Origin: Streptococcus pluranimalium
Lineage (GTDB): Bacteria > Bacillota > Bacilli > Lactobacillales > Streptococcaceae
NCBI RefSeq assembly: GCF_002953735.1
Contig: NZ_CP025536.1
Coordinates: forward strand, 1,804,001-1,868,000
Reading direction: 5' to 3'
DNA length: 64,000 nt
The position numbers were made by a program, and so were the translations under genes. Below are positions 57,198 to 60,833 of the stretch, one piece after another; position 1 is the first letter of the stretch, and the number at the start of each line of letters is the position of its first letter. Below the pieces are notes generated by a model, which did not search any database, was not told the DNA's origin, and was given only the letters and a program-made list of their open reading frames with translations.

Positions 57198-57229
57198 TCA
57201 AAAAAACCTACCAAGAATGGTAGGTTTTC
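57198..57229 (-). terminator. Terminator of the FasX-like RNA
   Basis: AAAACCTACC (57203-57212) and GGTAGGTTTT (57219-57228), a 10-bp stem with a 6-nt loop and seven T on the minus strand. Confidence 0.9.
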
Positions 57230-57352
57230 AATTTCTAGCTTACTAATAGGAGATTTGAAACTAGAAAGGAGATTAAATTAGGAAGGCGAGGGTGGAGATT
57301 ATTGAGATGTATCGAACAGTCAATATGTTTAAGAGAGTTCCTCGCCTTTACA
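57199..57352 (-). ncRNA. fasX: FasX-like regulatory small RNA (predicted)
   Basis: Directly after the response-regulator gene on the same strand, as fasX follows fasA in S. pyogenes. It has an extended -10 (TGGTAGACT), a strong terminator, and AAGGCGAGG/CCTCGCCTT arms (57283-57291 and 57340-57348) that fold the 5' half. Three copies of AATCTCC in the RNA (57249-57255, 57268-57274, 57294-57300 in plus coordinates as GGAGATT) are complementary to Shine-Dalgarno sites. No protein frame. Ends are predicted; about 150 nt, shorter than the ~205 nt of S. pyogenes FasX. Confidence 0.7.
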
Positions 57353-57358
57353 CTTATT

Positions 57359-57364
57359 AGTCTA
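57359..57364 (-). promoter_or_regulatory. -10 of the FasX-like RNA
   Basis: TAGACT preceded by TGG (extended -10); the -35 region is poor, suggesting a need for an activator. Confidence 0.5.
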
Positions 57365-57392: not shown

Positions 57393-57426
57393 AGTCGTGA
57401 AATGTCGTTTTTTACTCACGAAATGT
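57393..57426 (-). promoter_or_regulatory. Direct repeats, likely response-regulator (LytTR) sites for the small RNA
   Basis: On the minus strand ACATTTCGTGAGT (57426-57414) and ACATTTCACGACT (57405-57393) are direct repeats offset 21 bp, ending next to the -35 position of the small-RNA promoter. The first overlaps the stop codon of the response-regulator gene. Confidence 0.7.
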
Positions 57427-58159
57427 TATTTTCCCATTTTGTGAGTAAAGTTTTCATTTTCAATCGAGAGACTAAGCAGGTTTCTCCATTATCAAAATAA
57501 ACCAGTTGAGAGGATTTATCAACACGACTGATATTATCTAGATTAATCAAAAATGAACGGTGACACTGGTAAAACTTGTCGCTCATTTGTTCAACATCGG
57601 AGATCTTAGCATAAAATTCTAGACGCTCTGTCTTAGTTCTCAAGATAAGTTTATGGGCTGTTTGAGAGGTTTCAAAATAAAGAATATCATGTAAAGGAAC
57701 CTTAATTTGAGCTTTAGAGGATTTATAATCAAAGTAAGATACTTCACTTTGAATGCCTCCTGAAAGACTTGATGTATAAAGAATACAATCACGCACCTGC
57801 TCTTTAAAATCTTCAGGATCCAGCGCCTTATCAATAAAGTCATAGGCAGCTACTTTATATTTAAAACTGATTGGCGCAAATTCTGAATGCGTTGTGACAA
57901 ACACAATAACAGCATTAGGATCTACTTGCCTCAATTCAGAAGCTACTTCCAGCCCTTTTCTTGCTTCATCCTTAATTTCAATATCAAAGAAAAATAACTG
58001 GTGACTCCCTCTTTCTTTAATATTGTCAAGTAAATTTGAAGCCTTGCTATAGGCTTCTAAATGGCGACAGGCAAGATTTTCTTCTTTTAAGATATCTTTG
58101 ATCGTTGCTAACAAACGCTCTTTTTGGTAAAGGTTATCTTCTAAAATAAAGATGTTCAT
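57416..58159 (-). CDS. fasA: FasA-like LytTR response regulator
   Basis: This 247-residue regulator has an N-terminal receiver domain (acidic pocket ED at 7-8, phosphoacceptor D59 in FFFDIEI, Lys in FIDKAL) and a C-terminal LytTR DNA-binding domain (~140-245, ILYFETSQTAHKLILRT, CHRSFLINLDNI). It belongs to the AgrA/ComE/FasA class. It overlaps the upstream kinase gene by 4 bp. Two LytTR-type repeats lie over and after its stop, in front of the FasX-like RNA. Confidence 0.85.
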   Translation of the reverse strand: MNIFILEDNLYQKERLLATIKDILKEENLACRHLEAYSKASNLLDNIKERGSHQLFFFDIEIKDEARKGLEVASELRQVDPNAVIVFVTTHSEFAPISFKYKVAAYDFIDKALDPEDFKEQVRDCILYTSSLSGGIQSEVSYFDYKSSKAQIKVPLHDILYFETSQTAHKLILRTKTERLEFYAKISDVEQMSDKFYQCHRSFLINLDNISRVDKSSQLVYFDNGETCLVSRLKMKTLLTKWENNIS

Positions 58160-59520
58160 GATTCTTGTCTCATTTCTAGGATTTGAGTAAAACTATGCTG
58201 TCCTGTTTTTGTTGATAGCATGGTTTGCGGATAATTTTCTAAAATACGTTGAACATTTGATAAACCAATCCCTCTATTTGGTCCTTTTGTTGAATATCCG
58301 GCATGAAATATTTTTGAGATATCAACACTATTTTTGGTAACGCTATTTTCTACAATCAATAACTGACTGTCTTCTCTCTCAAAAAAAGCAACACTAACAT
58401 GAGGTCTCTTCGCTTCTCTTGCAGCTTCAATGGCATTGTCTAAAAAGACAGATAAAATAATAACCAGATCAAGAGCCCCCATATAAATGTCCGTTATCAC
58501 ATCAGGAATTTCTAAAAAAGCTTCTATATTTTGACTTTGCGCCTCAATCATCTTAGCAGATAGTATGCTCTTTATCGGGGATACTTTAAGATTGACCAGT
58601 CGCCCCAACTCATACTGCGATTGATCAATAGCGACTTGCCTTCCAGCAATCATCCTACCATAAGCATCGCTAATAGCCTTTACATCTCCCTGATCAATCA
58701 AGACACGGAGTTCTTCAAAGGTTCTATCAAACTCATCTTTAAATTGTTGAATATCATTATATAACCATTCGATTTGTTGATTATAATCTTCTAAAGCCTT
58801 AATTTTATCAGCTTGTGCTTTCTTTAGTTTTCGATCCATCTCTATTTTTGTTTCATGATTAATCTCAGATAGCAACCAAAAATAAAACACAACAAATACA
58901 AACACCAATTGTTGACGATACAGCCAAATACCATCCGCCATCGTCAATAGAGGTTCAAAAAATGAACCATCCAATTTAGGTGATATGATTCTGATGATTG
59001 TAGTGCTCGCTAACATAATGTGATAAGTCACTAAAAGAAGGTTAAAAATCCTAGCCAAGAATCGTTTACGAGCCGTCTTTCCATTTTGAATTCTCTGGAA
59101 ATCCAAATCTAAAATTTTATTCAAAAAATAATAAATAGGAAAAACCGCTCCATAACTAATAGATAAAAGCATGGTATTGTTGTTTAAAGCCTCTGGCGTC
59201 AGATCTAATAACGGAGAGATGACATATAAAGCCATCATTCTCGAAAAGATATCAACTGTCACAACTGGGAAGAAACTATAAAAAAGATACTTGGAAAGAT
59301 GCTCTCTAGGATAGTAAAAATAATAGATGCCACAGAAAAGGAGAACACTTAACGAATACCCCAGAAGCTGATAATGATAAACAACGCCTAATAATAAGAT
59401 TGACAAAGGGACAAATAGTCTTTTAGAAATCGTAATGCCGCTAGTATGTGAGAAAATCAACCAGTACATATACCAAATAATCACATAAACTAGTAAATCT
59501 TTAAATGCTACAATACTCAT
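58156..59520 (-). CDS. fasC: FasC-like sensor kinase with intact ATP-binding motifs but no phospho-acceptor His
   Basis: This 454-residue HPK10-type sensor has six to seven membrane helices (residues ~1-220), a coiled dimerisation segment and a C-terminal ATPase domain. The ATP-binding motifs are intact: N-box FLDNAIEAA (N362) and G-box NRGIGLSNV (~416-423). At the H-box, where AgrC/ComD kinases have F-K/R-H-D-Y, this protein reads F-K-D-E-F-D (D262), so it cannot autophosphorylate normally. It overlaps both neighbours by 4 bp. Confidence 0.8.
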   Translation of the reverse strand: MSIVAFKDLLVYVIIWYMYWLIFSHTSGITISKRLFVPLSILLLGVVYHYQLLGYSLSVLLFCGIYYFYYPREHLSKYLFYSFFPVVTVDIFSRMMALYVISPLLDLTPEALNNNTMLLSISYGAVFPIYYFLNKILDLDFQRIQNGKTARKRFLARIFNLLLVTYHIMLASTTIIRIISPKLDGSFFEPLLTMADGIWLYRQQLVFVFVVFYFWLLSEINHETKIEMDRKLKKAQADKIKALEDYNQQIEWLYNDIQQFKDEFDRTFEELRVLIDQGDVKAISDAYGRMIAGRQVAIDQSQYELGRLVNLKVSPIKSILSAKMIEAQSQNIEAFLEIPDVITDIYMGALDLVIILSVFLDNAIEAAREAKRPHVSVAFFEREDSQLLIVENSVTKNSVDISKIFHAGYSTKGPNRGIGLSNVQRILENYPQTMLSTKTGQHSFTQILEMRQES

Positions 59521-60833
59521 ACGACTTCCTCCCTTACTTTTTCAATAATAAGGGTCTCTTTAGATTTGTAAAATCCACTTTCAAAAAGCAGCTGACAATG
59601 TGGATGCGCTTGGAAAATAGCTTGAAGCGTCTGCATCTCTTTGACATCAAGAGCATCATTCAATGTTTGAGTCGCAAAGCAAAGACAGCTTGTTTCTAGA
59701 CGTTCCATTGACGTCGCATAAGAAACACTCACTTCAAAACTACTTTCATTCTGAGTGATTCTTAACTTTAACCAAGGCTTAGGACTAGCTTTCGTTAGTT
59801 TACTAGCCAATCCTAGTAAGAGATGAATCACAAGCACAAAATCTTTTTGCAAGTTTAAAGAATGTGCTGTTATCTCACAAATAGAGGCTGACACATGGAT
59901 CCCTTGGTTCTTGATATCTAACAAATCACGAATTAACATCATTTTAAGGTTATTATCCTTCAAGGGGATTAATTGATAAAGTAAATAATCATCATGTTCC
60001 ATGTTATCACGAGACTTTTTTAAAACGTCTTCATATACCGTTTTGATATCTCCTAGGTTTCCATTATACATACAATCTTTCAAGCTAATCAAGATATTGT
60101 CATAGTCATGCTTAAAAGCTCGAATATTTTCATAAATAGCTTCAAGATGCTGACTATAATGTTCCAAATTTTCCAGATATTGACTTTGCTCTTTTTCCAC
60201 TTCTAATTGATAACTTAGTTGAGCTTGTCGATTAAGTAAAGTCAACATATAAATTAAAAGCATAATGAAAGCCAACAGGGTTAGCTGGTGATAGTTAGCG
60301 ACACTCGATTTTACGTTAAAGAAGATGCCATAATAAACAAGATAATACAGAATAAAGAAGCCATTCATGCTATAAATATAGCTCTGAATACGTTTGTCTG
60401 GCATTTGCAAAATAGCTGGGTAATCAATCCTAAATAGCCTCTTTAAAACCCTATTAGTCGGTAAGACTAGTAGTAGAGCAAACACTATCTCCCAGGCAGA
60501 AAACGGCTTTTGAACGATATCATATTGAAACAATTTTGGGTAAATGAAAAAGGTAACCGTTCTGACAAAAAGATCAACAAAGATAACAGGGAAAGCACTG
60601 TAAAAAAAGTGTCTACAAAGTGTCTTTGCGGAATTCGCCAGTAGAGATAAGCTGAAAAAGGCTAGAAAAAGTGGTAAAAAAGGATTCAAAGGAAATAAGA
60701 GGGCAAAAACGATAGATAATAAAAGAGTAACGAGAAAATAAACACCTTTCAATTTTTTCTGCGTGATATCTTGATATATCAACCAGATTACAGAAAAAGC
60801 AAAGCAGTAAATGTATAACCCAACGCTTTCCAT
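59517..60833 (-). CDS. fasB: FasB-like sensor kinase with phospho-acceptor His but degenerate ATPase domain
   Basis: This 438-residue HPK10-type sensor has about six membrane helices (~1-200), a coiled segment and the H-box FKHDYDNILISL (H242). In the C-terminal part the N-box position reads LGLASKLTKAS in place of LDNAIEAA, and no G-box (GxGL) is present. It is therefore probably not an active ATPase and may act as phospho-acceptor for its partner. It heads the three-gene operon. Confidence 0.8.
   Translation of the reverse strand: MESVGLYIYCFAFSVIWLIYQDITQKKLKGVYFLVTLLLSIVFALLFPLNPFLPLFLAFFSLSLLANSAKTLCRHFFYSAFPVIFVDLFVRTVTFFIYPKLFQYDIVQKPFSAWEIVFALLLVLPTNRVLKRLFRIDYPAILQMPDKRIQSYIYSMNGFFILYYLVYYGIFFNVKSSVANYHQLTLLAFIMLLIYMLTLLNRQAQLSYQLEVEKEQSQYLENLEHYSQHLEAIYENIRAFKHDYDNILISLKDCMYNGNLGDIKTVYEDVLKKSRDNMEHDDYLLYQLIPLKDNNLKMMLIRDLLDIKNQGIHVSASICEITAHSLNLQKDFVLVIHLLLGLASKLTKASPKPWLKLRITQNESSFEVSVSYATSMERLETSCLCFATQTLNDALDVKEMQTLQAIFQAHPHCQLLFESGFYKSKETLIIEKVREEVV

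Follow-up and report, generated by a model that had tools for sequence, protein, structure and literature searches.

In Streptococcus pyogenes, the small RNA FasX serves as a model of how RNA controls adhesion; through a CU-rich stretch, it masks the ribosome-binding sites of several mRNAs and thereby represses them (excerpts of PMC12675982, PMC4691137). The RNA described here, encoded on the minus strand of a 64,000-nucleotide (nt) stretch of the Streptococcus pluranimalium genome (hereafter the window, whose positions serve as coordinates of the features within it), shares with FasX of the FasBCAX system the place after fasA, a ComE-type site upstream of the promoter and CU-rich pairing stretches, and the sequestration of ribosome-binding sites of several mRNAs is established there (PMC12675982, PMC4691137 and PMC7900414, in part). 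Alike in the way of working only is LhrC of Listeria monocytogenes, which is under two-component control and blocks translation of the cell-wall adhesin LapB (excerpts of PMC4132741), but belongs to an unrelated locus and regulator, is present in five homologous gene copies and uses CUCCC instead of AAUCUCC. The CiaRH-dependent small RNAs (csRNAs) of streptococci are likewise short, carry anti-Shine-Dalgarno words and comprise several genes per regulator (PMC4691137, PMC8186281, in part). We consider it likely that the element is the FasX of the window lineage, a trans-acting RNA switched by FasA and blocking several mRNAs including those of surface proteins, and that a second RNA gene, FasX2, probably takes part in the same response.

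The small RNA gene (57199–57353, about 153 nt) is confirmed as a sequence feature on the minus strand, its start being deduced from the -10 hexamer and its end from the terminator. The sequence-only reading of this DNA had described an RNA-only interval with an extended -10 promoter, and the -10 is indeed of this kind, the hexamer TAGACT (57359–57364; TAAACT in three relatives) being preceded by TG; promoter strength is rated fair, not strong. The rho-independent terminator proposed in the same reading is a hairpin of 12 pairs (57202–57229) followed by a T run. Both promoter and terminator are absent from the output of a simple consensus scan, and no Rfam family reaches the gathering score anywhere in the window, weaker matches having been discarded. 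In the predicted fold, to which all pairing values for this RNA refer (z = -6.5 with and -3.75 without terminator), the likewise predicted 9-bp long-range stem joins 57340–57348 (5' arm) and 57283–57291 (3' arm), and a second hairpin with the core arms UUUCUAGUUU and AAGCUAGAAA spans 57232–57267. Besides the 5' loop AACUCUCUU (57331–57339), the RNA offers three exact copies of AAUCUCC, the first within the loop of the long-range stem (57294–57300), the second in a linker (57268–57274) and the third in the loop of the second hairpin (57249–57255). Their start spacings of 26 and 19 nt are those reported before, and among 100,000 first-order Markov sequences with the same composition as the RNA, not one reached three copies (mean 0.048 copies). 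The second copy continues into UUUCU, thereby matching the 3' end of 16S rRNA. That the motifs are prone to be single-stranded also holds in the prediction, with CUCC at least 0.96 unpaired at all three sites and the preceding U at 0.92, 0.98 and just 0.55 at sites 1, 2 and 3, respectively.

The gene is located directly downstream of fasA, which encodes a response regulator with a LytTR DNA-binding domain (57416–58159, minus strand) and itself follows two fas kinase genes. Ahead of the promoter, a ComE/LytTR-type direct repeat pair, ACATTTCNNGA-N10-ACATTTCNNGA (57395–57426, minus strand), the first half of which overlaps the end of fasA, is proposed as FasA site; it had not been mentioned in the sequence-only reading. 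This pair is the only zero-mismatch copy in the genome and, with three mismatches allowed, has no second match in the window, whereas scanning the whole genome at up to two mismatches gave one further site (one mismatch, at FasX2) and the backward control none. In S. pyogenes, a ComE-type site is found upstream of the fasX -35 element (PMC12675982, in part). The start of the second repeat is 41 nt away from the -10 hexamer in the window versus 40 nt in all 14 classic fasX loci; these were picked out by published pairing words of S. pyogenes FasX (UUGUUUUCUCUCUCUC, in 11 of the 14, and the ska-pairing UCAAUCCCC, in 8; excerpts of PMC4691137) and include no named S. pyogenes sequence. Across 23 fasA loci (FasA identity of 51.5% or more, not counting duplicates of the window lineage), the strict repeat-pair pattern was found in 18 and CU-rich tracts in 21, both counts standing without a chance control; L037 and L038 show no CU-rich tract.

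Unlike these features, the RNA body cannot be aligned with FasX. Even unfiltered and with E values as high as 100, a profile of the 14 classic FasX RNAs failed to match the window RNA or its counterparts in S. thoraltensis and S. hyovaginalis, the words UCAAUCCCC and UUGUUUUCUCUCUCUC are both missing from the window RNA, and the latter has about 153 instead of 205 nt and three AAUCUCC copies in place of one long CU tract. Other fasA lineages possess RNA forms of their own, with several CU tracts in genomes G069 and G020 and TCTCTCTCCC occurring twice in G036 and G072. What is retained is the place, the promoter and the CU-rich tracts, and the window RNA qualifies as a FasX through its location, its promoter and probably its mode of action, but not through its sequence. 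Synteny and promoter layout support the earlier suggestion of a FasX-like RNA after fasA. The accompanying statement that it resembles a multi-target repressor more than FasX of S. pyogenes does was overdrawn, as the latter already represses several mRNAs via their ribosome-binding sites (PMC12675982, PMC4691137, in part). In excerpts of the openly licensed literature, neither a second FasX nor a FasX of S. pluranimalium, S. thoraltensis or S. hyovaginalis is described, and the part of PMC3675131 that mentions the latter two species does so solely as lacking six other RNAs.

For tracing relatives, a protein scan of named genomes gave two loci, with FasA being 85% identical in S. thoraltensis (genome G179) and 78% in S. 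hyovaginalis (G057). A DNA search of 197 genomes of the genus resulted in 12 matches, namely the window (G000), G179 and G057 as clear relatives and nine short ones of 31–41 nt, five of which fall on the promoter repeats and four elsewhere. Chance seems to account for the 31-nt matches in G187, G062 and G019, as one of them (L009) falls within coding sequence and is near-identical to the remaining two. An RNA model built from three sequences matched 7 of 284 Streptococcus genomes, four of them strongly (157–171 bits): G000, G179, G057 and G214, the last of which (159 bits) is the sole strong match independent of the model's own sequences. These are referred to as the four genomes or fas genomes, and G032, G060 and G034, with best FasA matches not better than 5e-47, as fas-less controls. 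Weak matches in G156, G068 and G067 (26–34 bits) were not counted; the inspected one in G156 is a hairpin between two metabolic-type genes, showing that nothing is proved by a score around 30 bits, and matches of 29.6 and 33.0 bits (L018, L019) were therefore not used as evidence of descent. The RNA model thus revealed one further Streptococcus genome (G214), but nothing pointed to the salivarius group, across which the sequence-only reading had suggested a covariance search; the closest named FasA and RNA sequences are those of S. thoraltensis and S. hyovaginalis, compared without a species tree.

Conservation of motifs and stem in relatives had been put forward as a test. AATCTCC occurs three times in the window, S. 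thoraltensis and G214 and twice in S. hyovaginalis, copies 1 and 3 being kept in all four sequences and copy 2 in three (AAUCUCU in S. hyovaginalis). In addition, AACUCUCU of the 5' loop is unchanged in all four and the TTGACTGTTCGATACATCTCAATAATCTCCA stretch nearly invariant. When the four-sequence alignment was fitted to the model structure, 95.6% of the cells were paired compared to 42–54% with partners slid, and 5 of the 12 terminator pairs are altered on both sides between species; support for the model structure is weak against the shuffles treated below. By eye, the corresponding stem of S. hyovaginalis reads GCGGGG/CCCCGC and was left uncounted because the alignment is gapped there.

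As S. pyogenes FasX represses surface adhesins (excerpts of PMC12675982), genes for LPXTG-anchored proteins were chosen for analyzing candidate target sites. From 61 anchor matches in the four genomes, 55 usable starts were obtained and complemented with one YSIRK-only gene (one of two YSIRK matches) to a set of 56, after dropping 656974 and 1104695 (no usable frame) and 73747 (not looked up) in G000 and three matches without open frame in G057; 352 other starts from the same genomes served as background, all starts being called by script. The RNA loops pair better with the surface-gene starts than with the background (p = 0.0014, with or without correction for the 16S tail), and the two sets do not differ in how they pair with the 16S tail itself (p = 0.28) or with reversed loops (p = 0.50). 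By genome, the p values of pairing energy are 0.07 (G000), 0.19 (G179), 0.001 (G214, with 25 background starts only) and 0.71 (G057). GGAGA is present at 24/56 surface-protein starts versus 76/352 in the background (p = 0.0009), remaining at 17/38 after merging similar proteins (p = 0.0023), with 8/12 versus 47/205 in G000, 6/16 versus 12/57 in G179, 8/18 versus 3/25 in G214 and 2/10 versus 14/65 in G057. In the fas-less controls, represented by 45 of 69 anchor matches (the best 17, 17 and 11, all of them retained), there is no such difference (10/45 versus 48/212, p = 0.59; merged 7/26, p = 0.39). About seven control starts seem miscalled by eye, leaving 9/38 without them, and about four in the fas set seem wrong as well. 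The longer word GGAGATT, which had been recommended for a search of start regions, is weakly enriched (5/56 versus 8/352, p = 0.022) and was rejected as sole target word; it is the shorter GGAGA that carries the signal. Besides synteny and promoter layout, the conserved loops and the ribosome-site statistics support the reading as a FasX-like RNA with anti-Shine-Dalgarno motifs. Top candidates in G000 are two LPXTG proteins, one of 886 residues encoded near conjugation-like genes (AAAGGAGATTGAG-ATG) and one of 949 residues (AAGGAGATTAT-ATG), both ranking within the best 2% of the 205 background starts. All target statistics are exploratory and correlative.

The one-mismatch repeat pair at 827590 of the S. 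pluranimalium genome belongs to a CU-rich RNA gene not linked to fas, FasX2 (about 827,590–827,830; L244:1511-1740), and thereby to a further difference from the S. pyogenes system. Here, TATAAT is located 41 nt past the start of the second repeat half and is followed by about 163 nt with four CU-rich tracts and a terminator, the neighbors being a potD-like gene before and a GNAT acetyltransferase-like gene after it (named by eye). Searching 284 genomes with the FasX2 DNA gave 18 matches at E ≤ 0.01, of which the four strong ones are from exactly those four genomes having the window-type fas RNA. G179 and G057 show the repeat pair and the preceding potD-like gene. In G214 (L247:1400-1620), alignment is limited to the 3' part and a search with a relaxed pattern yields no repeat pair, so that the locus looks decayed. 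The more distant genomes G069 and G020 contain a second perfect repeat pair unlinked to fasA, with a -10 at 41 nt, CU-rich tracts and, by eye, a similar acetyltransferase frame downstream, but with upstream genes differing from the potD-like neighbor; the G020 sequence was cut too short by the script at an internal T run and its fold was not used. Altogether, the repeat-to--10 distance is 41 nt at five FasX2 loci, and an acetyltransferase-like gene follows in four of five genomes (L244, L246, L248, L269, L277; by eye), the frame of G179 being unread. The underlying repeat scan covered 22 fasA-positive genomes at up to one mismatch, is silent on repeat absence elsewhere and resulted in 47 places, 16 of which were inspected in addition to the window's own. 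As it misses degenerate pairs, for example at fasX of G057, FasX2 is claimed for five genomes and absence for none. Recurring one-mismatch matches in classic genomes were rejected, the three inspected (L286, L287, L288) lying inside a 385-codon open frame. By eye, two-sided changes preserve the pairing of the FasX2 outer stem in S. hyovaginalis, and none of four FasX2 loci reaches an Rfam gathering score. Pairing of FasX2 loops with surface-gene starts gave p = 0.044 in fas genomes and 0.94 in controls. Sharing the promoter layout and having several CU-rich tracts, FasX2 probably belongs to the same response; although outside the window, it is the most interesting result of all and the part most worth testing.

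Taken together, a FasA-type regulator would switch on the small RNA gene through the ComE-type repeat pair, and the RNA would act in trans by offering one CUCUC and three AAUCUCC sites, mostly single-stranded, for pairing with Shine-Dalgarno sequences of the GGAGA(UU) type, blocking translation of several mRNAs including those of surface proteins. Fas would then drive two anti-Shine-Dalgarno RNAs damping surface proteins. The analysis itself shows how the gene is built and conserved, its promoter layout and predicted structure, the ribosome-site statistics and, as a sequence feature, FasX2; transcription, FasA control and repression of the surface-protein class are deduced from sequence, and several results weigh against this interpretation. 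Of 500 shuffles of the 3' letters, 29 attain the observed proportion of paired cells, 38 the number of two-sided pairs and 53 the covariation score, and two-sided changes are confined to the terminator (5 pairs). The mean difference in pairing energy is about 1 kcal/mol, S. hyovaginalis alone shows no effect in either measure, ten motifs were tried with GGAGAAA and GGAGATC likewise below 0.05, and GGAGATT also precedes the ordinary genes tsf, thrS and lysA (by eye). With the window loops, pairing energy shows a trend in the same direction for the control starts (p = 0.068, or 0.23 when corrected for the 16S tail), the corresponding values of the fas genomes being 0.0027 and 0.0024; hence, the controls separate better on GGAGA than on energy, and even there direct comparison of surface genes between the groups (24/56 versus 10/45) reaches just p = 0.024. 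Set against the known FasX targets, the streptokinase, pilus and fibronectin-binding mRNAs, only class-level LPXTG enrichment was observed.

Finally, such repeats could also be acted upon by a second FasA-like regulator matched in the genome, and elsewhere similar repeats with similar spacing precede bacteriocin-type-looking genes (by eye). Both would fit control of FasX2 by a different LytTR regulator of the BlpR/ComE type instead of FasA, which we regard as unlikely, though the most serious of the alternatives, since the -10 spacing of FasX2 equals that of fasX, the repeat search of the genome, allowing two mismatches, leads to the two RNA genes only, and the four strong FasX2 relatives among 284 genomes are the four carriers of the window-type fas RNA. 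Turning to the window RNA, the near-invariance of TTGACTGTTCGATACATCTCAATAATCTCCA in four sequences goes beyond the needs of a bare motif and might reflect a FasA-dependent RNA mainly stabilizing or activating one or few mRNAs, with the anti-Shine-Dalgarno motifs being secondary. S. pyogenes FasX has such a target in ska, paired via a separate CU-rich site (PMC12675982, PMC4691137, in part). However, the published ska-pairing word is missing from the window RNA and the relation between loops and ribosome sites is class-wide, making this explanation rather improbable. Still less credit is given to a CiaR-type csRNA or generic anti-Shine-Dalgarno RNA adjoining fasA by chance. The CiaR repeat, TTTAAG-N5-TTTAAG, is absent from the examined stretch at all four loci, promoter and genomic sites differ, the ComE-type pair is perfect and Rfam gave no match at gathering score in the window, although streptococcal csRNAs are short and contain a CCUCCU-type motif (excerpts of PMC4691137). 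A plus-strand gene of 17 codons (57307–57360, ATG at 57307) is hardly credible and was rejected, as its well-spaced start GGAGATTATTGAGATG arises because the anti-Shine-Dalgarno word reads as a Shine-Dalgarno sequence on the opposite strand and as the 17-codon frame, while found in S. thoraltensis too, ends after 7 codons from the same ATG in G214 and the scan of S. hyovaginalis lists no Shine-Dalgarno-preceded open reading frame of at least 10 codons ending inside the stretch.

Returning to FasX control by FasA, a broader proposal can be made only tentatively: Fas might be an RNA-output switch which, in two related Streptococcus lineages, governs two unlinked and fast-evolving anti-Shine-Dalgarno RNAs with fixed promoters and rewritten bodies, jointly controlling GGAGA surface genes, with FasX2 decaying in G214. 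If FasX position and promoter are indeed kept while the RNA is replaced, this would explain the failure of FasX sequence searches outside close relatives and, together with FasX2, turn one RNA into a small regulon with traceable evolution, providing candidate targets for testing in little-studied animal streptococci. From unpublished data, authors working on S. pyogenes argue that FasA acts at fasX only (PMC12675982, in part); FasX2, if driven by FasA, would be a counter-case in another lineage.

Upstream of fasA, the adjoining sensor kinase gene (58156–59520, minus strand) encodes a GHKL ATPase domain and an H-box FKDEFD without histidine, and the first kinase gene (59517–60833, minus strand) an H-box-like FKHDYDN (by eye) without any Pfam domain found, so that kinase roles appear to be split. 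In S. pyogenes, FasC supplies a needed histidine while its own kinase domain is dispensable (excerpts of PMC12675982), hence the order of these roles may be swapped in the window; similarity scores back such a swap weakly. Between the window, L013, L014 and L241, FasA is 78–85% identical and the two kinases just 42–60%, i.e., the sensors change faster than the regulator. At L238 and L239 (G036 and G072), where the RNA region carries TCTCTCTCCC twice, no fas kinase was matched in the stretch fetched beside fasA. Downstream of fasA at L020 (G193), two classic FasX cores apparently stand in tandem (by eye).
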